A stretch of 64,000 nt of DNA. Origin: Vulcanimicrobiota bacterium. GTDB lineage: Bacteria; Vulcanimicrobiota; Xenobia; Xenobiales; JADMJV01. The stretch spans positions 1 through 64,000 of the forward strand of contig JAHBVR010000019.1 in NCBI GenBank assembly GCA_019637395.1. Direction: 5' to 3'. The position numbers and the translations under genes were made by a program. The notes beneath the pieces were generated by a model. The model ran no database searches. It had not been told where the DNA came from and was given only the letters and a program-made list of their open reading frames with translations. This document shows positions 12,996-24,627 of the stretch, in pieces. Position 1 is the first letter of the stretch, and each line of letters begins with the position of its first letter.

Positions 12996-13640
12996 GTGGG
13001 GCGGGGCGGCCGACCCATCTTAGAGCGATTTGCGTCGGCTCTGGGAGGCCTATCCGGAGTAGAAGCTCTTGTGCTGGGAGGCTCGCGAGCGCGCGGAACG
13101 CACACCTCCGACTACGACCTGGGGCTGTATTATCGCGGAGAGCTGGATGTGCAAGGCCTGCGCGCCGCGCTGGCCAGCGGGGGCGCCCGGGGAGAGGTCA
13201 ACCAGCCCTGCGACTGGGGCCCCTGGATCAATGGTGGAGGCTGGCTGACCTGTGAGGGTCGGGCTGTCGACATCATCTACCGCGACCAGGACAAAGTCCA
13301 GCGGATCGTCCATGACTGTCTGCAGGGGCGCATCGAGCTGGTCATGCAGCCGGGCCACCCCTTCGGATTCCACACCCCGATCTACGCCGGAGAGCTGGCC
13401 TGTGGCCAGGTGCTGTGGGGAAACATCGAGCGGCCGGATATGCCGACGAGCTGTCTGTGCCAGGTGCTTTTCGCCCGCAACCGGCGCTGGGGACTGAAAC
13501 GAAAAGGGGGCTCTGGCCGAAGCGGCATCCCTGAACGGAGCCCCGGCCGCCTTTGCTGGAACGGGCCAAGAGCGGGTGTGTGCAGGTGATAAGAGAGCTG
13601 CTCAAGGAAGCCGGAATCGCCTCTGACGGATCGGTTTGAG
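12996..13640 (+). pseudogene. Minimal nucleotidyltransferase-domain protein, C-terminus frameshifted
   Basis: From GTG 12996 the sequence has LVLGGSRARGTHTSDYDLGL, the G-S-x-A-R-G and D-x-D core of the MNT/KNTase-type fold, and a further acidic strand AVDIIYRD. The first 150 residues look intact. After PDMPTSCLCQVLFARNRRWG the frame drifts: 13501 onward in another frame gives NEKGALAEAASL, and then VQVIRELLKEAGIASDGSV to a stop near 13640 in a third. A helical segment expected between MPT and QVLF also seems deleted. The open frame itself ends at 13589. Product probably non-functional or truncated. Confidence 0.6.
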
Positions 13641-13753
13641 ACCACAGCCCCTGCGACAAGACTTGCTATACTGGGCATGCCTGTAGAGCACTCCACAAGG
13701 TGCACTACAAAATCTTCGAGTAAATATGGATTAGGCCCCCCAGCCTCCCTACT

Positions 13754-13870
13754 TTACCCGCCTTGGTTCGGCCACTCTTTCTGGCAGCGTGAACATAGTT
13801 CAGGGTCGACGCCCAGCGCGTTGGCGAAGTAGCCAGCGTAGGTGACCTGATCCAGCATCGGCACGGCTAT
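13754..13870 (-). pseudogene. Short C-terminal gene remnant
   Basis: On the minus strand 13754-13862 reads MPMLDQVTYAGYFANALGV then DPELCSRCQKEWPNQGG and stops at 13754. The sequence looks like a genuine protein C-terminus with a CxxC pair, but a stop lies only five codons upstream of the GTG that precedes it. I cannot name the family. The rest of the 13641-13924 gap shows nothing else. Confidence 0.35.
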
Positions 13871-13924
13871 GCGTTTCTACCTGAGCGAGGAGAGAACGCC
13901 CGCACACCCGAAGCGAGCTTAAGA

Positions 13925-15241
13925 ATGAAGATCGCTTTACTCTCCCCGCGTGGCCCGCTCTATCGCCATAAAACCGGCATTTTCAAGAAGTCTTTGCGCT
14001 ATATGCCTTTGACGCTGCCGACGCTGGCCGCCCTCATTCCGCCCGAACTGACGAATGGACTGCAACTGCTCGACGAAGGCATTGAAGATATTCCCCTGGA
14101 CCTCGACGCCGACCTCATCGGCATCTCGGCCATCACCGGCAGTTCCGCGCGCGCCTACGAGCTGGCCGATCACTATCGCCATCAGGGTAAGTGCGTGGTA
14201 CTGGGCGGTGTGCATCCCACCTTGCTGCCCGATGAAGCCGCCCGCCACGCCGACGCTGTGGTGGTCGGCTATGCCGAGGATAGCTGGCCGCAATTGCTGC
14301 ACGATTTTCAGCAAGGCAGGCTGCAGAGTCGCTACCGTCAGCAGCCCGGACTGCAACTGGGCGGCCGTCCCCTGCCCCGCCGTGACCTGCTGCCCGACGG
14401 CAATTTCACTGTCGGCCATACTCTCGAAGCCACCCGGGGCTGCATTCACAAGTGCAACTTTTGCGTGGTGCCCAGCGCCTGGGGACGGCCGCTCCAACAC
14501 CCTGTTGGTGAGGTCATCCAGGATATCCAGAATATGCGGGCACGCCGCCTGATTTTCATGGACCTGAACCTGATCGCCGACAAAAACTATGCCAAAGAAC
14601 TTTTCCGCGCCCTCATTCCGCTCAAAGTCACCTGGGGCGGACTGGTCACCACCCAGATCGCCTGGGACGACGAACTGCTGGATCTGGCCGCCCGAAGCGG
14701 CTGCAAAGGCCTGCTCATCGGCTTTGAAAGCCTCACTCCCGAAGCTCTGAACGAGTGCAAAAAGGGCTTCAACTTACTCAAGGAATACCGGGAGGTGATC
14801 GCCCGCGTGCACGAGCGTAAAATCGCCATCATGGGCACTTTCGTCTTCGGTTTCGACCACGACGGCATCGAGGGCTTCGCCAACACCGTCGACTTTGTCA
14901 TGGAAAACAAGATCGAACTGCCCCGCTACGCGGTTCTCACCCCGTTTCCGGGCACACCCCTGCACCAACGTCTCGACCAGGAAGGCCGGTTGTTGCACAA
15001 AGACTGGTCGCTCTATGACGGCCAGCACGTGGTTTTCCAACCCTCGCTCATGACTCCGGGCGAGTTACAGCGCGGCATCGAATGGACCTGGAAGAAAACT
15101 TACAGTTACCCAGGTATCGCCCGCCGCTTATGGCGCGGCAATCTTTTCTGGACGGCCCTTACCGCCAACTTGGGCTACCGCTTTTATGCCCACCGCCTGC
15201 ACCAGTTCTACAACTGCCGCGAGCCTTTGCTGGCGGCCTGA
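13925..15241 (+). CDS. B12-binding-type radical SAM enzyme (first)
   Basis: The 438-residue protein has an N-terminal cobalamin-binding-type Rossmann domain (about 1-150, with LIGISAITGSSARAYELA and VVLGGVHPTLLPDE). Then comes a radical SAM core with the iron-sulphur motif C173-x3-C177-x2-C180 in RGCIHKCNFC. Later family motifs are GFESLTPE and LTPFPGTPLHQRL, followed by a C-terminal region of the DUF4070 kind. Such enzymes do radical methylations or C-C bond rearrangements on lipids and natural products; the substrate here is unknown. The canonical DxHxxG cobalamin His is not evident, so cobalamin binding is uncertain. The stop overlaps the start of the second enzyme (TGATG). Confidence 0.85.
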   Translation: MKIALLSPRGPLYRHKTGIFKKSLRYMPLTLPTLAALIPPELTNGLQLLDEGIEDIPLDLDADLIGISAITGSSARAYELADHYRHQGKCVVLGGVHPTLLPDEAARHADAVVVGYAEDSWPQLLHDFQQGRLQSRYRQQPGLQLGGRPLPRRDLLPDGNFTVGHTLEATRGCIHKCNFCVVPSAWGRPLQHPVGEVIQDIQNMRARRLIFMDLNLIADKNYAKELFRALIPLKVTWGGLVTTQIAWDDELLDLAARSGCKGLLIGFESLTPEALNECKKGFNLLKEYREVIARVHERKIAIMGTFVFGFDHDGIEGFANTVDFVMENKIELPRYAVLTPFPGTPLHQRLDQEGRLLHKDWSLYDGQHVVFQPSLMTPGELQRGIEWTWKKTYSYPGIARRLWRGNLFWTALTANLGYRFYAHRLHQFYNCREPLLAA

Positions 15242-16617
15242 TGCGCCTCACTTTCATCCATCCGGCCGTGGGCCACCAGGGGAAACGCCCCTACATTCGC
15301 GCCTGGCAGATGGAACCGCTACCTCTGGCCGTATTGGCAGCCCTCACTCCCAAAGAGGTGGAAATCCGCTTTTATGACGACCGGCTCGAAGATATCCCCT
15401 GGGACGAACCGACCGATCTTGTGGCCATCAGCGTGGAAACCTATACCGCCCGGCGCGCTTACCAGATCGCTTCCCATTTTCGACGCCGTGGCGTGCCCGT
15501 GGTCATGGGCGGTTTTCACGCCACCCTGATCCCCGAGGAAGTGAGCCAGTTCGCCGAAGCGGTGGTGGTCGGCGAAGCCGAAGAAGTCTGGCCCCTGCTG
15601 ATCGATGACTTTCGCCATGGAAAGCTGCAGCCGCTCTACAAATCCAGTGAACGCCCCAAGCTGGCCAGAATCCGCCCGCGCCGCGAGATTTTCGCAGGCA
15701 AGCGCTACCTCAACTTAGGATTGGTCGAAGCCGGGCGTGGTTGCCACTTCCACTGTGAATTCTGTGCCATTCAAGCCTATTTCAAAAACACTCAGGTACG
15801 CCGGCCCACCGACGACATTCTGGCCGATATCCGCGAACACAAACGTCCTTTATACTTTTTTGTAGACGACAACATCACCTCCAACCTGAAGCAAGCCAAA
15901 GACTTCTTCCGCGCCCTGATCCCCCTGAAGATCCGCTGGGTCAGTCAGGCCTCCATCAACATCGCCCACGACGAAGAATTCTTGCAGTTGATTCAGGCCA
16001 GCGGCTGCCAGATGCTGCTCATCGGCTTCGAAACCTTGAACCCGAACAGCCTGAAGGCCATGAACAAAGAGTTCAACAGCATGCGCGGCGGCTACGAACA
16101 GGCCCTGGCCAATCTGAGAAAATATAAAATACGACTCTACCCGACCTTTATTTTTGGCTACGACGAAGACACCGAAGAGACCCTGAAAGAAACGCTGGCC
16201 TTCTGCCGGCGCCAGAAGTTCTACCTGAGCGCCTTCAATCACCTGACTCCTTTCCCCGGTACCCCGCTCTACCGGCGACTGGAACAGGAAAACCGCCTGG
16301 TCTTTGAGCGCTGGTGGCTGGATCCGCGCTACCGCTACGGCATGGTGCCTTTTCGCAGTCGCGGCCTGCCCCCCGAAGCGATCGAACGGCTCTGCCTCAT
16401 GGCCCGCCAAAACTTCTACGGCTTCCCCTCGATTGTACAGCGCAGTCTGGATTTCCAGGTGAACAGCAGCAGTCTTTTTGGCATGGCCACCTTCTTCACA
16501 GCCAACCTGATGTTGCGCCGCGAGGTACTACAGAGACAAAAACTGCCACTGGGTGACGCCGACGATCACACCCCGTTGCTGCCTGTGGCCGGAGTCCTGG
16601 CGGGGTCCGCCTTGTGA
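15241..16617 (+). CDS. B12-binding-type radical SAM enzyme (second)
   Basis: The 458-residue protein starts at ATG 15241 overlapping the preceding stop; MRLTFIHPAVG matches the start style of its neighbour. It has the same architecture: B12-binding-like N-terminus (VAISVETYTARRAYQIA, VVMGGFHATLIPEE), iron-sulphur motif C168-x3-C172-x2-C175 in GRGCHFHCEFC, then LLIGFETLNP and LTPFPGTPLYRRL. ETYTARRAY is shared with the minus-strand enzyme at 17536-18834, so these two are closer paralogues. Its stop overlaps the GTG of the CULT protein, giving a three-gene coupled unit. Confidence 0.85.
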   Translation: MRLTFIHPAVGHQGKRPYIRAWQMEPLPLAVLAALTPKEVEIRFYDDRLEDIPWDEPTDLVAISVETYTARRAYQIASHFRRRGVPVVMGGFHATLIPEEVSQFAEAVVVGEAEEVWPLLIDDFRHGKLQPLYKSSERPKLARIRPRREIFAGKRYLNLGLVEAGRGCHFHCEFCAIQAYFKNTQVRRPTDDILADIREHKRPLYFFVDDNITSNLKQAKDFFRALIPLKIRWVSQASINIAHDEEFLQLIQASGCQMLLIGFETLNPNSLKAMNKEFNSMRGGYEQALANLRKYKIRLYPTFIFGYDEDTEETLKETLAFCRRQKFYLSAFNHLTPFPGTPLYRRLEQENRLVFERWWLDPRYRYGMVPFRSRGLPPEAIERLCLMARQNFYGFPSIVQRSLDFQVNSSSLFGMATFFTANLMLRREVLQRQKLPLGDADDHTPLLPVAGVLAGSAL

Positions 16618-16970
16618 ACAAGACCGAGACCAACCAGCAAGCCCAGGCCAAACCTCAGGCCCAACCGGTAGTTCTGTGTAAAGAATGCCATTCGGTGGTG
16701 ACCGAACCGGAAGCCGCCATCCAGGTGGAAGGCGGCCACGAGCATACCTTCCGCAACCCGGCCGGCTATTCATTTCACGTCCTCTGCTACGCCAGCGCCC
16801 CCGGAACGATCGAAGTGGGCGCCCCTACCGAGGCCGCCAGTTGGTTTCCCGGCTATGCCTGGTCGCTGGCCCTGTGCGCCAACTGCCACCAACACCTGGG
16901 CTGGTGGTATGAAGGCAAAAGCATCTTCGTCGGCCTTATCGCTACCCGTCTGGTGCGTTCCCCCAGCTGA
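16614..16970 (+). CDS. Stand-alone CULT-domain protein (bacterial cereblon-like)
   Basis: The 118-residue protein matches the CULT domain, the thalidomide-binding fold of cereblon that also occurs as small bacterial and secreted eukaryotic proteins. Two CxxC zinc knuckles are present (C22/C25 and C88/C91). The aromatic cage is conserved: W77 and W83 in SWFPGYAWSLALC, and W97/W98 in HQHLGWW, the three-tryptophan pocket that binds cyclic imides. GYSFHVLCYA is the matching central strand. There is no signal peptide. GTG 16614 overlaps the radical SAM stop, so it is co-translated with two B12-type radical SAM enzymes, which suggests it binds or senses a product or damage-derived cyclic imide of that pathway. 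The function is inference; the family call is strong. Confidence 0.85.
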   Translation: MNKTETNQQAQAKPQAQPVVLCKECHSVVTEPEAAIQVEGGHEHTFRNPAGYSFHVLCYASAPGTIEVGAPTEAASWFPGYAWSLALCANCHQHLGWWYEGKSIFVGLIATRLVRSPS

Positions 16971-17029
16971 AATATCCCCGGTCCCGACTGGACCGAATGG
17001 GATTTTCCCGGACAGCTTCGTTCCTCGCT

Positions 17030-17049
17030 AAAGAAGAGTTGCCTTCTTT
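17030..17049. terminator. Possible bidirectional hairpin between convergent genes
   Basis: AAAGAAG (17030-17036) pairs with CTTCTTT (17043-17049) around a six-base loop. It lies between the CULT gene and the oppositely oriented YHS gene, touching the latter's stop codon. The stem is weak (7 bp, AT-rich) and has no separate U tract. Confidence 0.3.
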
Positions 17050-17456
17050 CAACCTGGCCGGACAGATTCGGAAGTAAGTTCTCCGGCTTCGACCACCTCT
17101 TCGGCGCTGATGTAGTGATACCGCTGGCTGGCGCGGTTGAGCAGCCAGGGAAAGACGCGGCCCAGCGTGCGATAGACGGGTTTGCTATAACAGTAAAGTT
17201 TGTCGCCGACGACGTTGCAGAAGTCGGGGTTGCCGGGGTGGCGCTTGCCGCCCAAGGCGTAGGCCACCGGGCACATTCCCTCGAGTTGGGGGAGAAAGCG
17301 TTCCGGGTTGATTTCAAAAATCTCCAGATTGCGTTGGCTGGAGAAGAAGTAGGTCTTGGCGCCGTAGCGCTTTTTGAACTTGGGGCTGCCCATCTGCTTT
17401 TTGAGATGACCAAGAAAGGCAACGGGATCAAGCCCGTTCAAGCCAATGTGGTTCAT
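17049..17456 (-). CDS. YHS-domain protein
   Basis: The 135-residue protein reads MNHIGLNGLDPVAFL, then KTYFFSSQRNLEIFEINPER and FLPQLEGMCPVAYALGGKR, the plan of YHS-domain proteins, in which the domain is a small metal-associated or heme-associated module. The C-terminal VVGDKLYCYSKPVYRTLG also fits the family. I chose ATG 17456 because AGGTGA lies 6 bases upstream; a TTG 15 codons earlier (17501) is possible. It lies downstream of and on the same strand as the third radical SAM enzyme, 79 bases from it, so it is probably in the same transcription unit. Its role in the locus is unknown. Confidence 0.75.
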   Translation of the reverse strand: MNHIGLNGLDPVAFLGHLKKQMGSPKFKKRYGAKTYFFSSQRNLEIFEINPERFLPQLEGMCPVAYALGGKRHPGNPDFCNVVGDKLYCYSKPVYRTLGRVFPWLLNRASQRYHYISAEEVVEAGELTSESVRPG

Positions 17457-17535
17457 TTTAATCACCTGCCCTTGCGTAAAGTGGTATATCTTTCCTAACA
17501 AGGATCAGGCAGTCTGGTCTGTGAAGCCGGTTACA

Positions 17536-18834
17536 TCAACCTAAAGGCCTCCCCAGTTTGCGCTCGAGAGTGCGCCGCGAAGTCCAATTGGCTCCCAGAC
17601 TGATCAGCCGGTGACTCACGGAACGACAACCAGCGGCCGGCCAGAGCACCCGGCCAGCGATATTGGAGCAACCGTAAAACTGAGCGCGTGCCCAGCGACA
17701 GCCTTCGGTCAACTGTTGCGCCGTCAGCAGACGGGGCCGGTAGACGGCATCTCCATAGCCGTACCGGCCGTCCAGCCACCAGCGCTCATAGAGCAGCCGG
17801 TCCTCTTTTTCCAGACGAGCATAGAGCGCGCTGGCCGGAGTGGGCGTGAGAGCGCTGAAGTTCACCAGGAAGAGCTGATTTTCCAGGGCGAAATCGACGG
17901 TGCGGGCGAACACGTCGTGATCGTCGTGGTCGTAGCCGAAGATGAAGGAGCCGTAGATCATGATGCCCTGGGCGTGGAAGCGCGCGATGGCCTCACGGTA
18001 AGGATGGCGCGTGTTCCACTTCTTGCGCATTTGCGCCAGATTGGCTCCATCCAGCGACTCAAAACCGATCAGGGCGGCCACGCAACCGCTCTCCGCCATG
18101 GCCCGCAGCAGCCTTTCATCGGCGGCCACGTCCAGGCTGATCTGACATCCCCAGCGCAGGCCGCAACCGCGCAGGCCGGCCAACAGGCCGTGCAGGGCTT
18201 GGCCGTTGACGAAGAGGTTGTCGTCCACCACAAATAAGTAGCGCGAACGCAACGAGCAAGCTTCGGTCACCACTTCATCGATGGGCCGGTGCTTCAAAGA
18301 ACGCCCGTAAAAGGCGTGAATGGAGCAGAAATCACAGGCGAAGCGGCAACCCCGGCTGAACTGTAGCGGCGTCACCCTGCCATACGATTTTTTATAAAAA
18401 AGCGACCGATCATAGCGTAGGCCGAGCATCTCACCCCCGGCCGGCTGGCGATAGAGGCGCTCCAGGCGACCGGTGGCCGCATCACCAAGAACCCGAGGCC
18501 ACAGGGCTTCGGCGTCGCCGCACACCACCGCGTCGCAGTGAAGCAACGCTTCTTCGGGCAAAAAGGTCGGATGGTAGCCGCCGGCCACCACTTTGAGACC
18601 CTGAGCGCGAAAGCGATCGGCCAGGGCGTAGGCGCGGCGGGCCGTGTAGGTCTCCACCGTCAGAGCCACCAGATCGGTATGCAGAACGGCCGGCACCGCT
18701 TCCACTTTCTCGTCCCACAGCTCGCACTCCACGTCAGGCGGAGTGACTCCTTTGAGCACGGCGAAAGCCAGCGGCTCCATGGCGTCGGGAGAACGCCAAT
18801 CTCCCAGGTTGGGACGCACGAAGCTGATTTTCAC
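17536..18834 (-). CDS. B12-binding-type radical SAM enzyme (third)
   Basis: Taking GTG 18834 as the start gives VKISFVRPNLG, which aligns with the starts of the other two enzymes. A longer frame to 18903 would overlap the divergent desaturase gene. The 432-residue protein has the B12-binding-like domain (ALTVETYTARRAYALA, VVAGGYHPTFLPEE) and the cluster motif C163-x3-C167-x2-C170 in RGCRFACDFC. Further family motifs are ALIGFESLDG, GSFIFGYDHDDHD and LTPTPASALYARL. It is divergent from the desaturase operon with 57 bases between starts, so the two likely share a control region. The second plus-strand enzyme is its nearest visible paralogue. Confidence 0.83.
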   Translation of the reverse strand: MKISFVRPNLGDWRSPDAMEPLAFAVLKGVTPPDVECELWDEKVEAVPAVLHTDLVALTVETYTARRAYALADRFRAQGLKVVAGGYHPTFLPEEALLHCDAVVCGDAEALWPRVLGDAATGRLERLYRQPAGGEMLGLRYDRSLFYKKSYGRVTPLQFSRGCRFACDFCSIHAFYGRSLKHRPIDEVVTEACSLRSRYLFVVDDNLFVNGQALHGLLAGLRGCGLRWGCQISLDVAADERLLRAMAESGCVAALIGFESLDGANLAQMRKKWNTRHPYREAIARFHAQGIMIYGSFIFGYDHDDHDVFARTVDFALENQLFLVNFSALTPTPASALYARLEKEDRLLYERWWLDGRYGYGDAVYRPRLLTAQQLTEGCRWARAQFYGCSNIAGRVLWPAAGCRSVSHRLISLGANWTSRRTLERKLGRPLG

Positions 18835-18891
18835 CCGCCCGGCTTCGGGAAAGGGCCAGGGGATCCCCTGAAATTTCCAGAAGCCGCCCGA

Positions 18892-19815
18892 GTGAGCCAG
18901 CAACCCATTCCCAGCCGTCTCAACCTCGCCATCGGGGCCGTCTCGATGAGCGGCTGTCTGGCGCTGCTCTGGCTGGCCTCACATACTCAGAGCGGCTGGG
19001 TGCTGCTGGGCAGCGCCGTGCTTTTCTCCTATCTGAACAACACCAACTTCTCGCTGTTTCACGAGGCCGAGCACAAGATTCTCCACTCCAATGAAACGGT
19101 CAACGAATGGTTCGGACGTATCCTGGGCGCCTTTTTCCCGACCAGCCTGGGCTTTCATCGGGCCGGCCATCTCAACCACCACGCCCACAACCGCAGTGAA
19201 TTTGAAACCTTCGACTACATCCGTCCCGGCGAGAACCTGCCGCTGAAGTATGTGCAATGGTACTGCGTACTCACCGGAGTCTATTGGACCCTGCCGCCGC
19301 TGGCCAGCCTGGCCTACATGATCTGGCCGGGCTACGTGCGCCTCGGCTCGTTGCGCAACACGGCCGAGGCCAGGCAGACGGCCACCATGACCTACGCCAA
19401 AGCTTACGATCGCGCCCCCGAAACGGTCATCCGCCTGGAAGTAGGCCTGAGCATTTTGTTGCAGATGGCTTTTTTTCAGCTCCTCGACCTGAACTGGGTA
19501 GGCTGGGGATGTTGCTATGCCGCCTTCGCTCTCAACTGGGCCTCTCTCCAGTATGCCGACCACGCCTTTTCCGCCTGCGACCCCCTGACCGGCGCCTGGA
19601 ATCTACGCGTCAACCCGATTATTCGGGCTTTCTTCCTGAACTACCACTACCATAAAGCCCACCATGAACATCCCAAAGTTCCCTGGATTTATCTCGGGAA
19701 CTACCTCGACCCTGAGGAATTCCGCCCCTGGTTCTGGGACATCTACTGGTTGATGTGGCGCGGACCCCAACCCTTACCCGCCGATGGCCGCAGCCCCCTT
19801 GTCCCGCGCCGTTAA
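18892..19815 (+). CDS. Membrane fatty-acid desaturase/hydroxylase-type protein
   Basis: The 307-residue protein has the three histidine boxes of the di-iron membrane desaturase superfamily. HEAEHKILH is at about 57-65, HRAGHLNHHAHN at about 89-99, and YHYHKAHHEHP near the C-terminus. Hydrophobic segments flank them (LAIGAVSMSGCLALLWLA, LGSAVLFSYL, and others). It would introduce a double bond or hydroxyl into a lipid or carotenoid-like chain. GTG 18892 is the first start past the divergent gene; no clear ribosome site is seen, so translation may be leaderless. It is the first gene of a six-gene overlapping operon. Confidence 0.85.
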   Translation: MSQQPIPSRLNLAIGAVSMSGCLALLWLASHTQSGWVLLGSAVLFSYLNNTNFSLFHEAEHKILHSNETVNEWFGRILGAFFPTSLGFHRAGHLNHHAHNRSEFETFDYIRPGENLPLKYVQWYCVLTGVYWTLPPLASLAYMIWPGYVRLGSLRNTAEARQTATMTYAKAYDRAPETVIRLEVGLSILLQMAFFQLLDLNWVGWGCCYAAFALNWASLQYADHAFSACDPLTGAWNLRVNPIIRAFFLNYHYHKAHHEHPKVPWIYLGNYLDPEEFRPWFWDIYWLMWRGPQPLPADGRSPLVPRR

Positions 19816-20407
19816 GCCGGAGCCCGCAGCCCTGGGATTGGTGGCTCTGGCCCTGGCCGTCTACTGGGCCCTTTACGCCTTGAGTGCCCGATTGGGAGAC
19901 TTCGCCGCCACCCGCTACCACTTCTACTTCGAATGGGAACGGAATATCCCACTGGTACCGGCGGCCGCGCTGGTCTACCTGTCCATCACCTTCATGTTGA
20001 TTCCGCTGCTGCAGGCGCTGCCCACCGCCCGCCAACTCTGGCCGGTGGCCGTCACCCTGATATTTCAAGGATTGGTGGCTTCGCTGTGCTTCTGGCTGGT
20101 ACCGCTGGAAGACGGGTTTCCCAGCCACCCTCCCGTCACCGGCTGGGACGGCCGGATCTGGGAATTATCCAATCAATTGGCCTTGCGCCACAATTATTTT
20201 CCCAGTTTGCATGTCACTTTGGCCACCTCGGCGGCTCTGGTCCTATCGCGCCGGCGCGGTCGAGTGGACTGGCCCATGGTCTTGTGGGCGGCGGCCATCG
20301 CGCTGTCCACCCTGTTTGTCCACCAGCACCATGTAGCCGACGTGCTGGGCGGATTGGTGCTGGCCCTGGCCGGCGTGCATCTGGTCTACGACCGGTTGGC
20401 CAAATGA
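19784..20407 (+). CDS. PAP2-family membrane phosphatase
   Basis: The 207-residue protein overlaps the desaturase gene by 32 bases. It has about five hydrophobic segments. The C-terminal part carries NYFPSLHVTLATSAALVLSR and then FVHQHHVADVLGG, corresponding to the PSxH and H-x-x-x-D motifs of PAP2 phosphatases. Such enzymes remove phosphate from lipid phosphates such as phosphatidate or polyprenyl diphosphate, with the active site facing outward. In this operon it probably acts on a lipid intermediate. The stop overlaps the next ATG. Confidence 0.8.
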   Translation: MAAAPLSRAVKPEPAALGLVALALAVYWALYALSARLGDFAATRYHFYFEWERNIPLVPAAALVYLSITFMLIPLLQALPTARQLWPVAVTLIFQGLVASLCFWLVPLEDGFPSHPPVTGWDGRIWELSNQLALRHNYFPSLHVTLATSAALVLSRRRGRVDWPMVLWAAAIALSTLFVHQHHVADVLGGLVLALAGVHLVYDRLAK

Positions 20408-21561
20408 TCAGCAGTCTCTGGAACGGATTCCAACTGCTCTTCCGCCCCTACCCCTACTTTCGCGATGCGCGCACCACCTGGCGAGCTCCGCTTCCCGGGC
20501 TGGGCTCGGTGCTTATCAGCGCTGACCCCGGCCTGGTGGCGGAAGCAGCCAGACATCCCGACCTGGTGGGCGGGCGCGCCCATCGCGCCATGCGCGCCAG
20601 CCTGGGTGACGGCCACCTGATCGTCATGTGCGGGCCCGAGCACCGCCTGCGCAGCCGCCAGGTGCGCCGGGCTTTGCAGGCCTTCACCAGCGACTCCGAG
20701 ATGGCCGAAATCACCCGCCAGGAATTCGCCCGCACTCCGCTGCGGCGTCCGTTCTCTGTGCAGCAGGTAGCCCACCGAGCCAGTTTGCGCATTATTTTAA
20801 GAGGGCTGGTAGGGCGCGATGAGACCGCGTTGATCCAGCTCAGCCAGGCTTTTCAAGCTTCCTTTTCCAGTCCACTGCTGCTTTTTGTGGAAAAGCTGCG
20901 CCGGGACTGGGGGCCCTGGTCGCCCTGGGGCCGCCTGTTGCGCCGCCGGGCTCGTTTGCAAGAGGCGCTGCTCCAGGCGGCTCGTTGCGCCCCACCCGGC
21001 AGTATCGCCGCTCGCCTACCCTCGGAAACCTGGGAGTACGAGCTACTCCCCCAGTTGATGTTCGGCCACGAAACCACCGCCGCCACCTTCGCCTGGTCTT
21101 TTGCGCTGCTCTATCCCGAGGCCCGCCGCCGCATTGCCAACGGAGAGGAAGCTTTCACGCTGGCCTACGTGCAGGAATGCATGCGACTGTGCCCACCAGT
21201 GGCCCAACTCACCCGAATGGCCACCCGGGAGCTATGCCTGGGCTCGCATTCCCTACGCCCGGGCGAAGTGGTGATGCCGGCCCTCCCCGGGCTCCACCAC
21301 CACGGCTGGTCCCACTCGGACCAATTAGAACCGGGACGCTTTCTTCAAGAAACCCCGGATCCGCACCGCTATTGTCCCTTCGGCCTGGGGGAACGCATCT
21401 GCCCGGGCAAGCCGATGGCCCTGCGCCAACTGGTCATGATGCTGCAAACCGTGCTCCAGCATTTCGATATTCACCCGCTGGCGGGCTATCAGCCCCGGCC
21501 CGTCCGCCAACTGTTCCTGGTTGCCCCGGCTCAAGGAACTCCGGCCATCCGCCGAGCGTGA
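20404..21561 (+). CDS. Cytochrome P450
   Basis: The start is ATG 20404, overlapping the PAP2 stop, giving 385 residues, within the usual bacterial range. The I-helix oxygen-activation motif is FGHETTAATFAW (about 220-231, GHETT in place of AGxET). The ExxR pair is E258/R261 in VQECMRL. The heme-binding loop is PFGLGERICPG with the thiolate ligand C333. It is a monooxygenase needing redox partners; none is encoded in the window. Its place between PAP2 phosphatase and GNAT-like genes points to oxidation of a lipid-like or natural-product intermediate. The stop overlaps the following GTG. Confidence 0.9.
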   Translation: MISSLWNGFQLLFRPYPYFRDARTTWRAPLPGLGSVLISADPGLVAEAARHPDLVGGRAHRAMRASLGDGHLIVMCGPEHRLRSRQVRRALQAFTSDSEMAEITRQEFARTPLRRPFSVQQVAHRASLRIILRGLVGRDETALIQLSQAFQASFSSPLLLFVEKLRRDWGPWSPWGRLLRRRARLQEALLQAARCAPPGSIAARLPSETWEYELLPQLMFGHETTAATFAWSFALLYPEARRRIANGEEAFTLAYVQECMRLCPPVAQLTRMATRELCLGSHSLRPGEVVMPALPGLHHHGWSHSDQLEPGRFLQETPDPHRYCPFGLGERICPGKPMALRQLVMMLQTVLQHFDIHPLAGYQPRPVRQLFLVAPAQGTPAIRRA

Positions 21562-22532
21562 ACGACTTTCGCCTGGCCCGGCCCGAAGACAGGGCCGACC
21601 TGGAAGCGCTTTCGGCCCTGCCCGTGCCCGGCCGCTGGATCGATCTGAGCTATCGCCGTTGCTTCCAGGATTGCCGCGAGCAAGTCTTGTTGGGGCGCAC
21701 GCAAACGGGGGAAATGGCCGCTCTGGCGCTACGTTCCCTGCCCTTACTGTGGCGCCGGGGTACTCCCCAAAGGCTGGGTTATCTGGGGGGCCTGCGGGTC
21801 GACCCGCGCTTTCAGGGACGCAATCTACTGGCCGAAGGGTTTGCCCTGCTGCGCCGCCTGCACGAGGCCGACCCGGTCGAGGAGTATCTGGCCACCATCG
21901 TGGAGGGCAACCAGTTGGCCCGCCGCCTGCTGGTGGAACGAGCCCGCCCCAGCTGGCCGCGTTTTTTTCCGTCCGGAGTACTGTGTACTCTGGCTCTGGA
22001 AACTCGCGCCTTTCCTTTCCAGGTCGTCTCGGCACCGGATGGGCAGTGTCAAAGAGAATATTTTCCTTGTGAAACTCCCGAGGAAGCGGGTGAACGGCGC
22101 TGGTGGGTGCAACACGAAGGAGTAATCGGCTGCCTGCGCGATCTTTCCCGCACTCGCCAAACCCGTGTGGCTGGTTACCACGGCGCTTTGCGCTGGCTCC
22201 GTCCGCTCTTCAACCTGTGGCAGAAACTCTGGAAACGCCCGTTGCTGCCCGCCTCTGGAAGTCTCTTAAAAGGCGGCTACGCCGGCTTCGTGTGCAGCGA
22301 TGGATACCGGCCCCGGGCCTTCGAGCAGTGGCTGCCAGGAATGCTTGGAATGGCCCGCGCCCAAGGAATGGATTGGCTTTATCTGGGATTGTGCGAAAGC
22401 GATCCCTACCTGCCCATCGCCCGGCGCTTTCGCCATCGCCTTTACCGCAGCCAGGTCTTTCGCGTGCGCTATCAAGGCCAGCCCGCCCCTCTGAACGAAG
22501 GAGCGCCCTACCTGGAACTGGCATGGTTATAA
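21558..22532 (+). CDS. GNAT-like acetyltransferase-fold protein
   Basis: GTG 21558 overlaps the P450 stop and opens MNDFRLARPEDRADLEAL, a GNAT-type first strand and helix. Residues about 70-130 (LGYLGGLRVDPRFQGRNLLA followed by GFALLRRLHE) resemble the acetyl-CoA-binding region with a Q/R-x-x-G-x-G/N pattern, followed by ATIVEGNQLARRLL. The 324-residue length suggests a double GNAT fold, the second half being divergent. The acyl acceptor is unknown. Fully embedded in the desaturase operon, it may acylate the pathway product or an intermediate. Confidence 0.65.
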   Translation: MNDFRLARPEDRADLEALSALPVPGRWIDLSYRRCFQDCREQVLLGRTQTGEMAALALRSLPLLWRRGTPQRLGYLGGLRVDPRFQGRNLLAEGFALLRRLHEADPVEEYLATIVEGNQLARRLLVERARPSWPRFFPSGVLCTLALETRAFPFQVVSAPDGQCQREYFPCETPEEAGERRWWVQHEGVIGCLRDLSRTRQTRVAGYHGALRWLRPLFNLWQKLWKRPLLPASGSLLKGGYAGFVCSDGYRPRAFEQWLPGMLGMARAQGMDWLYLGLCESDPYLPIARRFRHRLYRSQVFRVRYQGQPAPLNEGAPYLELAWL

Positions 22533-23182
22533 AACAAGAAGTGGTGGCGGTAAGCGAACTGCCGGCAGCTCAACTCCGCCTTTTGCAAGACCTCTACGAA
22601 GCGCACTACGGCGGTCTTCACCATTTCGCGCGCGATCTTTCGGAGAAGGACTGGGTGCTCTTGCTGCGCTCCGGTCAGCAGGTGGTCGGCTTCTCCAGTC
22701 TGCAGCGACGAGAGCAGAACGCTTTCGTGGTCTACTTTTCCGGCGATACGCTGGTCTTGCCGGACCACCGCCACGCTTATGATCTGCCGCGCCTGTGGGG
22801 CCGTTTCGTGTTCCAGCAAGTAGCCCGGGAATCCCTGCCCTGTCTCTGGTTCCTGATTTGCGGCGGATTTCGTACCTACCGATTTTTACCGGTATTTTTT
22901 CAAAAATTTTATCCGCGTTATGAGGAGAAAACCCCGGGGGAAACGCAAGCTTTGCTGGACCGATTGGCCTCCCAGCGCTACGGCGACCTCTATCACGAGG
23001 GAATCGTCCGGCTCGGCTCCCCCTGCCTGGAAGAACTGCCGCCGCGCGAGCTGGACGCCCACGCCCGCTTCTTCCTGGAACGCAATCCGGGCTGGCGCCT
23101 GGGCCACGAACTGGCCTGCCTGACCTGGCTGGACCGGGCCAACCTGACCCCGGCCGGTCAACGCATGGTGCGCGCTTGCTAG
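22523..23182 (+). CDS. Unrecognised protein, possibly GNAT-like
   Basis: The 219-residue protein starts at ATG 22523, overlapping the previous gene by 10 bases. LLLRSGQQVVGFSSLQRREQ and the following strands are reminiscent of the N-terminal sheet of GNAT enzymes, but no clear cofactor loop is visible. It contains an aromatic-rich segment (FRTYRFLPVFFQKFYPRY) and no signal peptide. The overlap on both sides indicates strong co-expression with the GNAT-like and GH3 genes. I cannot assign a function. Confidence 0.6.
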   Translation: MVIKQEVVAVSELPAAQLRLLQDLYEAHYGGLHHFARDLSEKDWVLLLRSGQQVVGFSSLQRREQNAFVVYFSGDTLVLPDHRHAYDLPRLWGRFVFQQVARESLPCLWFLICGGFRTYRFLPVFFQKFYPRYEEKTPGETQALLDRLASQRYGDLYHEGIVRLGSPCLEELPPRELDAHARFFLERNPGWRLGHELACLTWLDRANLTPAGQRMVRAC

Positions 23183-24627
23183 GCGCCCTCTGGTGGCTGA
23201 GCTGCCTGCCCGAGGCCTGGCGCTTCCAGCGGGCGGCTGAGCGGGTCCAGATGACGCAAAAAGCCTATCTGGGCGGTCTCTGGCAGCGCAACCAAAACTG
23301 CGATTATTTTCGTTCCCATGGCCTCAAGCGTGCGGAAGACTTTCGCGAAAAACTGCCACTGGTCACCTATGGAGACCTGGAAGAATGGATCGAGCGCTGC
23401 GCCGGCGGCCGGCAGAACGTTTTATGCAGCGAGCCCATCCAGCTCTTTGAGCCGACCAGCGGCACCCAGGCGGTCAAGTTGATTCCCTACACGGCTTCCC
23501 TGAAGGCCGAGTTTCAACGCGGACTGGGGGCCTGGATTGGGGACCTCTATGGAGGCAAGCCGGCCCTGATGAGCGGGCGCGCCTACTGGTCGATCACTCC
23601 CCCGAGCCGATGGGGATGCCCCCAGCGCACCGCCGGCGGCATCCCCATCGGCTTCGAGGATGACGCCGCCTACCTGTCAGGCTGGAGCCAGCACCTGGTG
23701 CGCGGCCTGCTGGCCGTCCCCCGAGCCTCCGATCTGGATGAGACCATCACCCAATTGCTGCACTGCCCCGACCTGAAGCTGGTCTCGGTGTGGAGCCCCA
23801 CTTTCTGGCTGCTGCTCCTGGAAAGGTTGCGGTCCCACTGGGACCATTGGGCTTCCCTGCCGGGCCTGCGAGAGCGAATGTCCCGAGGCCCTCGCGAACT
23901 CTGGCCGGAATTGCGCTTGCTGAGCTGTTGGGCTGACGGTCCCTCGGTGCGTTTTCTGCCGGCTTTGCGCGCCGATTTTCCCAATCTCTTCATTCAGCCC
24001 AAGGGCTTGTTGGCCACCGAAGCTTTTATCAGCTTCCCCCTGCTCGGGCGGCGCGGAGCCGCACTCTCTGTGCGCAGCCATTTTTTCGAATTTCTGGGCG
24101 AAGACGGGCGAGAGGTTCTGGCTCATGAACTGGTGGCGGGCCGCAGCTATGAAGTGGTGGTCAGCACCGGCGGAGGGCTCTATCGTTACCGCCTGGGAGA
24201 CAGGGTCCGCGTCACGGGCTTTTATAAGGAGTGCCCGCTGGTGCGCTTTCTGGGCCGCAGCGGCCTGGTCAGCGACCATTTCGGCGAGAAACTCACTCCC
24301 GAGGCTATCGAACTCTGGCTACCTACTCGTCGCGGCCCCTGTTTCGTGGCCTTCGAAGACGGCGGCTACGTGCTCTACGCTGAAGGCGACCTGAGCCAGG
24401 CCCTTCGGGAGGGCGAAGAATCCCTGCTCTTTTACTATCACTACCGGCTGTGCCGCCAGTTAGGCCAGTTGAAGCCCCTGCGAGGTTTCCAAATCGCAGA
24501 CAAAGCCTGGGAAGCGTTCTATACGCGCCTGGAATCGCTCGGCCGCCGCCGTGGCGAGGTCAAACCCCTGGCCCTGCGCCTGGAAGAGGACTGGAGTCAC
24601 CACCTCCCCGGGCGCTGGGTCCACTAG
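23176..24627 (+). CDS. GH3-family acyl-acid amido synthetase
   Basis: The 483-residue protein starts with TTG 23176 inside the previous gene. LFEPTSGTQAVKLIPYTASL is the GH3 phosphate-binding/ATP motif, with VTYGDLEEWIERCAGG before it. YEVVVSTGGGLYRYRLGDRVRV is the signature C-terminal strand-loop of the family. GH3 enzymes adenylate a carboxylic acid and join it to an amine, as plant enzymes do with auxin and jasmonate; many bacteria have homologues of unknown substrate. As the last operon gene it could conjugate the oxidised lipid or acid product with an amino acid or amine. No terminator follows. Confidence 0.85.
   Translation: MLGALWWLSCLPEAWRFQRAAERVQMTQKAYLGGLWQRNQNCDYFRSHGLKRAEDFREKLPLVTYGDLEEWIERCAGGRQNVLCSEPIQLFEPTSGTQAVKLIPYTASLKAEFQRGLGAWIGDLYGGKPALMSGRAYWSITPPSRWGCPQRTAGGIPIGFEDDAAYLSGWSQHLVRGLLAVPRASDLDETITQLLHCPDLKLVSVWSPTFWLLLLERLRSHWDHWASLPGLRERMSRGPRELWPELRLLSCWADGPSVRFLPALRADFPNLFIQPKGLLATEAFISFPLLGRRGAALSVRSHFFEFLGEDGREVLAHELVAGRSYEVVVSTGGGLYRYRLGDRVRVTGFYKECPLVRFLGRSGLVSDHFGEKLTPEAIELWLPTRRGPCFVAFEDGGYVLYAEGDLSQALREGEESLLFYYHYRLCRQLGQLKPLRGFQIADKAWEAFYTRLESLGRRRGEVKPLALRLEEDWSHHLPGRWVH

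Follow-up and report, generated by a model that had tools for sequence, protein, structure and literature searches.

Why does a gene for a small cereblon-like protein begin inside the stop codon region of a radical SAM gene, and does this arrangement tell us what the protein binds? The question is raised by a locus in the 64,000-nucleotide stretch of Vulcanimicrobiota DNA that we analysed (the window). The original prediction placed a stand-alone cereblon-like CULT protein in translational coupling with a B12-type radical SAM gene, and took this context as a clue to a ligand formed in that pathway.

The window protein proves to be a small bacterial homologue of the thalidomide-binding domain found in humans. 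The 118-residue, single-domain protein has PF03226 (Yippee-Mis18) as its sole Pfam match (27.5 bits against a curated cut-off of 26.6, residues 19-100). This family spans both yippee/Mis18 and CULT proteins. All solved sequences matched by phmmer are cereblon: 46 PDB sequences were found at E≤1, every one bearing that name, with Magnetospirillum gryphiswaldense cereblon isoform 4 as the best match (E 1e-24) and vertebrate or human-type cereblon at about 1e-10 to 1e-12. The AlphaFold2 model (pLDDT 88.8, pTM 0.78; residues 1-17 poorly ordered) gave 6r18_B as its top structural match in Foldseek (E 8e-11). VIA-align superimposed it on 6r0q_B with a Z of 19.4 and on 9htq_B with an rmsd of 0.9 Å over 98 residues; on structures of the M. 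gryphiswaldense protein MsCI4, Z was 19 and the best rows lay at 0.9-1.8 Å rmsd. Thus, superposition on Magnetospirillum CULT and cereblon structures, which had been proposed as a check, returned a cereblon-like predicted fold, the beta-tent of solved CULT domains, and the proposed identity is confirmed.

Inspection of 72 aligned bacterial CULTs revealed that the four cysteines of the two CxxC pairs, assigned to one zinc (C22, C25, C88 and C91), are invariant. So are N48 and the cage residues W77, W83 and W97, which align with the tryptophans of MsCI4. Residue 99 is tyrosine in 53 of the sequences and phenylalanine in 19. The CxxC pairs and the three-tryptophan cage, read as intact in the single sequence, are therefore identical in 72/72 proteins. 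No catalytic or degradation domain was predicted in the window protein. From residue identity and fold we infer an aromatic cage, and this anatomy supports a non-enzymatic ligand binder with a probably working imide pocket.

The gene and its neighbours in the window are as follows.

13925..15241, plus strand: B12-type radical SAM gene 1, with PF04055 and PF02310 above the Pfam cut-off.
15241..16617, plus strand: radical SAM gene 2, with Radical_SAM PF04055 at 57.6 bits and B12-binding at 32.0 bits, slightly below the cut-off of 32.1.
16614..16617, plus strand: GTGA start/stop overlap between radical SAM gene 2 and CULT.
16614..16970, plus strand: stand-alone CULT protein, 118 aa, GTG start; zinc cysteines 22/25/88/91, predicted cage W77, W83, W97 and Y99.
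17049..17501, minus strand: YHS-domain protein, convergent to CULT; missing from the G004 cluster.
17536..18903, minus strand: B12-type radical SAM gene 3, with B12-binding above the Pfam cut-off; start uncertain, as homologues align from about 18831.
18850..19815, plus strand: fatty-acid-desaturase-like protein; start approximate.
19784..20407, plus strand: PAP2-family protein, with no match in the G001 cluster.
20386..21561, plus strand: cytochrome P450; start approximate.
21600..22532, plus strand: putative GNAT-like protein 1, without a Pfam match in the window; start approximate.
22523..23182, plus strand: GNAT-like protein 2, with a predicted fold that partly matches GNAT acetyltransferases and no Pfam family.
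23176..24627, plus strand: GH3-family acyl acid amido synthetase, by sequence.

The stop codon of radical SAM gene 2 (TGA, 16615-16617) overlaps the GTG start of CULT at 16614, and radical SAM genes 1 and 2 overlap in turn as TGATG (stop 15239-15241, ATG 15241-15243). The predicted coupling stands in the form of the GTGA overlap, while the B12-type label of the coupled gene narrowly misses its Pfam threshold. No NCBIfam model matched the window radical SAM proteins above its cut-off. The GNAT label of protein 1 comes from a single weak Acetyltransf_1 Pfam match in one homologue, and no solved relative of it was found; that of protein 2 comes from a predicted fold that matches in part (Foldseek E 6e-6; TM 0.35-0.49, normalised to the query). 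A sigma-70 scan of 13500-17600 returned no promoter-like sites, an uninformative outcome. Upstream of radical SAM gene 1, no conserved ORF was found for a RiPP precursor, and tblastx rows from this region were rejected as low-complexity noise. At 13885-13915, 10-45 nt upstream of the same gene, lies the element GAGGAGAGA...CCCGAAGCG, which is conserved in the window and in two other genomes of the genus (L002 and L003) and is not found in L016; it is a possible leader or regulatory site.

CULT was found in six of the 98 relatives searched: the window's own genome, where it is the single CULT found, the remaining four genus genomes, and G006, which belongs to another family of the order. In all five genus genomes the gene directly follows radical SAM gene 2. 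An NTGA overlap joins the two in four of them (GTGA in the window and L002, ATGA in L003 and L015), and a 6-nt gap replaces it in L016. Identity to the window in the other four genomes is 85, 80, 60 and 53% for CULT and 92, 93, 85 and 81% for radical SAM gene 2, with the overlap retained even at 60% CULT identity. Relative to the window, dN/dS within the genus is 0.07-0.28 for CULT and 0.03-0.07 for radical SAM gene 2. CULT is thus constrained by purifying selection, yet is among the faster-evolving genes of the cluster. Values above 1 for the desaturase (L002) and the YHS gene (L015) were rejected as frame artefacts of approximate coordinates. Some clusters lack accessory genes, YHS in G004 and PAP2 in G001, and CULT is retained in both. 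The YHS position in G004, flanked by CULT and radical SAM gene 3, is taken by a 505-aa protein (L016:14514-16031) that has an HETGH motif and no Pfam match.

To see which genes travel together, we considered as the core of the cluster radical SAM genes 1 and 2, GH3 and both GNAT-like proteins, in searches of which one covered 28 relatives and one 98. The core is clustered in G005, G010 and G012, and CULT is absent from these three genomes at E≤1e-3, with G012 only 72% complete. Conversely, the CULT-bearing G006 gave no match to radical SAM gene 2 at E≤1e-40 and none to GH3 at E≤1e-15. The radical SAM/GH3/GNAT-like core therefore does not require CULT. This core is common to families of the order (L177, L178 and L179; 13925-24627 in the window). 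The G005 core cluster also holds a 922-aa fusion of ACP, AMP-ligase and acyltransferase, a hint of an acyl-amide type product.

To survey other bacteria, we searched for CULT with alignment A1 in groups centred on G102 (phylum; Desulfobacterota-like), G101 (phylum; Spirochaetota-like) and G100 (order; Obscuribacterales), and found it in 29/297, 33/296 and 17/53 genomes, respectively. The group labels are taken from the named record at the centre, and the 'Desulfobacterota-like' L008 is listed as Myxococcota. Neighbourhoods were read at 67 loci (L004-L009, L017 and L096-L155). Left out, mostly for short flanks, were 4 of the 29 Desulfobacterota-like CULT-bearing genomes (G240, G261, G290 and G380), 9 of the 33 Spirochaetota-like ones (G482, G558, G562, G566, G574, G579, G586, G595 and G607) and 3 of the 17 from the Obscuribacterales order (G733, G738 and G740). 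Across the 67 loci, no neighbour at a fixed position recurs across the three phylum-level groups; recurring contexts are confined to small related groups, six spirochaete loci being one example.

A profile built from the window's three radical SAM proteins gave one weak match in the 67 loci. By a CxxxCxxC motif reading, judged by eye without Pfam confirmation, seven loci contain a radical SAM gene (L005, L098, L099, L101, L103, L106 and L113), after exclusion of motif lines that came from the CULT proteins themselves (L098|-2, L105|-1 and L130|-10). Three of the 67 have it within two genes of CULT (L005 at +1 on the same strand; L098 at +2 and L103 at -2 on the opposite strand). Calibrated against 621 motif matches in 80.5 Mb from 16 of the CULT genomes, the expectation for the 0.883 Mb surveyed is 6.8 (pooled) or 7.3 (by group). 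We therefore rejected a general association of CULT with radical SAM genes at loci outside the genus. The neighbourhood association is real in the genus, in five of five genomes, and absent elsewhere; the lack of association in other genomes, which was to count against the original prediction, is thus seen outside the genus and not inside it. The interpretation in the original prediction is thus supported only in part. That the radical SAM context reveals a general role of bacterial CULTs finds no support: radical SAM genes are at background level outside the genus, and among relatives the core occurs without CULT and CULT without the core. The survey shows this context to be lineage-specific, which guards against over-reading it. 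Because related CULTs elsewhere have no such partnership, the cluster genes beside it hint only weakly at the ligand.

Several further observations came from these searches. In a Spirochaetales record (L005:10001-11248), a 307-aa radical SAM protein lies on the same strand, 3 nt after CULT, with a motif context that we take to resemble lipoyl synthase. Two CULT genes are present in G732 of the Obscuribacterales order (L147 and L149); every other whole CULT-bearing genome has one, save G290 with one partial second match. A mobile-element origin gained no support: there was no CULT match in plasmids or phages, and none of 16 candidate stretches in viral contigs was confirmed. Domain fusions were unsupported, since the extensions of long CULT ORFs look like out-of-frame translation.

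A CULT tree built on 72 rows and 115 columns, in which many branchings lack resolution, placed the genus, Obscuribacterales and G006 sequences in one 21-row clade with support of 100/99. Within it the G004 CULT branches first and G006 is nested among Obscuribacterales. Because the clade spans two phyla by name (Vulcanimicrobiota and Melainabacteria), the gene was likely exchanged horizontally with Obscuribacterales, in either direction.

What, then, does the protein do? The reading that we prefer, at about an even chance of being right, is a context-independent reader of cyclic imides that was captured into a lineage-specific GH3/radical SAM operon. CULT would be a small cytosolic protein in which a zinc-pinned beta-tent carries the cage (W77, W83, W97 and Y99), and the cage should clasp the imide edge of a glutarimide- or aspartimide-type ring, as in MsCI4 and cereblon. 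Its ancestral ligands would be imide ends; the likeliest are cyclic imides at the C termini of damaged proteins or peptides, or else small molecules that resemble imides. Since CULT elsewhere adjoins unrelated genes, the ancestral role appears context-independent; since it stands there without radical SAM neighbours, the ancestral ligand was probably no product of the radical SAM pathway. In the genus ancestor, the gene would have entered an already existing radical SAM/GH3/GNAT-like cluster, just downstream of a radical SAM gene with which it came to be co-translated, and the ancestral role presumably survived this capture. The overlap in four of five genomes and retention in five of five, despite the losses of YHS and PAP2, suggest more than accident and count against this reading. 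Some benefit of co-expression is plausible because CULT is kept in the operon in all five genomes.

In a possible but clearly less probable alternative, CULT binds the imide- or lactam-like head group of a cluster metabolite and serves as a carrier, sequestering or self-protection protein. One such metabolite would be an N-acyl amino-acid amide that cyclises to an imide once GH3 has ligated it. The gene lies inside the cluster throughout the genus, mostly with the start/stop overlap, it is the only CULT found in the window's genome, and GH3 is by sequence an acyl acid amido synthetase. An enzyme of the GH3 type could link a carboxylic acid with an amino acid that has a side-chain amide capable of cyclising. 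Against this reading, three relatives have the core without CULT, CULT elsewhere lacks a radical SAM association, and no cluster step demonstrably makes an imide. GH3 is moreover present in 51/53 genomes of the Obscuribacterales order and therefore cannot explain the distribution of CULT. A more specific version, which we think very unlikely, is that the cluster product is an N-acylated glutarimide or aspartimide, with the co-translated CULT as its dedicated carrier or immunity protein: GH3 would join an acyl group tailored by radical SAM and P450 enzymes to Gln or Asn, followed by imide closure. If true, this would be a bacterial biosynthetic counterpart of thalidomide in nature, made by an operon that also encodes its receptor.

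The choice between a protein-damage ligand and a pathway ligand is touched by the occurrence of PCMT. In the available excerpts of the sources, C-terminal cyclic imides are recognised by cereblon (PMC12117711, PMC11974815) and can be made by PIMT/PCMT1 (PMC13001092), and on this basis we compared PCMT with CULT occurrence in an unplanned analysis. A full PCMT was scored at E<1e-50 in the Obscuribacterales-order search, with weaker matches uncounted, and at E≤1e-25 in the Spirochaetota-like and Desulfobacterota-like samples. In the Obscuribacterales order it is present in 10 of 17 CULT-bearing and 5 of 36 CULT-lacking genomes (Fisher p 0.002; p 0.006 among genomes of 4.2 Mb or more); PCMT is missing from 7 of the 17, and also from G002. 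The Spirochaetota-like sample (36/296 genomes) gave 18/18 against 3/18, with controls that were the next or previous handle without taxonomic matching and mostly smaller genomes. The Desulfobacterota-like sample (36/297) gave 18/18 in both sets and is uninformative. PCMT occurs in four of the five genus genomes and in G005, G006 and G010. Since the controls lack a taxon match and tend to smaller genomes, we treat the link as a lead, not a result. As such, the co-occurrence, for which phylogeny and genome size are confounders, suits a ligand from protein damage no less than one from the pathway. Should it survive phylogenetic correction, it would fit an imide-reading role shared by bacteria and eukaryotes.

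It is rather unlikely that CULT is a passenger that landed in the operon, stays by vertical descent and has a non-imide role such as sensing uracil- or uridine-like pyrimidines. MsCI4 does bind uracil and uridine, according to the available excerpt of PMC4287342. The window and G003 are syntenic on the right flank of the cluster, so that gene order is perhaps partly inherited and descent alone could preserve it; on the left flank, L003 and L016 are different. However, purifying selection on CULT, the overlap kept at 60% identity and the loss of other accessory genes around it all speak against a passenger. Least credible of all is that CULT binds damaged, imide-terminated radical SAM enzymes encoded in the operon and then retains them or passes them on, which co-translation and the reading of C-terminal cyclic imides by cereblon (PMC12117711, in the excerpt available) would suit, but the operon has no protease or adaptor partner and the enzymes occur without CULT in three relatives.

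Our preferred reading of a captured imide reader can be set against known CULT systems. Our search of open-licence papers found no account of a cellular role or genomic context for bacterial CULTs, and the available excerpts of PMC4287342, PMC8900816, PMC12117711, PMC13001092 and PMC11974815 do not describe their genomic context. The locus gives a bacterial CULT an operon context with a defined, testable enzyme set. The Obscuribacterales CULTs (L004 and L136-L149) and that of G006 (L017) share the 21-row clade with the window protein, and an HEHTFRNP region and a GLIA[TS]R tail are common to the window, L004 and L017. None of the window's cluster genes lies beside the L004 CULT, and these 16 neighbourhoods contain no radical SAM gene by motif reading, unlike the window. 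The thalidomide-binding domain of eukaryotic cereblon has the CULT fold and cage of the window protein (about 30% identity, Z about 17). In cereblon, a CRL4 substrate receptor, a LON domain and a DDB1-binding region precede CULT; the window protein lacks both and therefore has no E3-ligase role. MsCI4 (MGR_0879; PDB 4v2y and relatives) was compared at the protein level; the window CULT gene stands in translational coupling with a radical SAM gene. It is also a stand-alone bacterial CULT, with about 40% identity to the window protein and the same predicted fold at Z 19. The largest insertion difference between the two is three residues near residue 102, and they have in common the two CxxC pairs, the three cage tryptophans and a tyrosine as the fourth aromatic residue.
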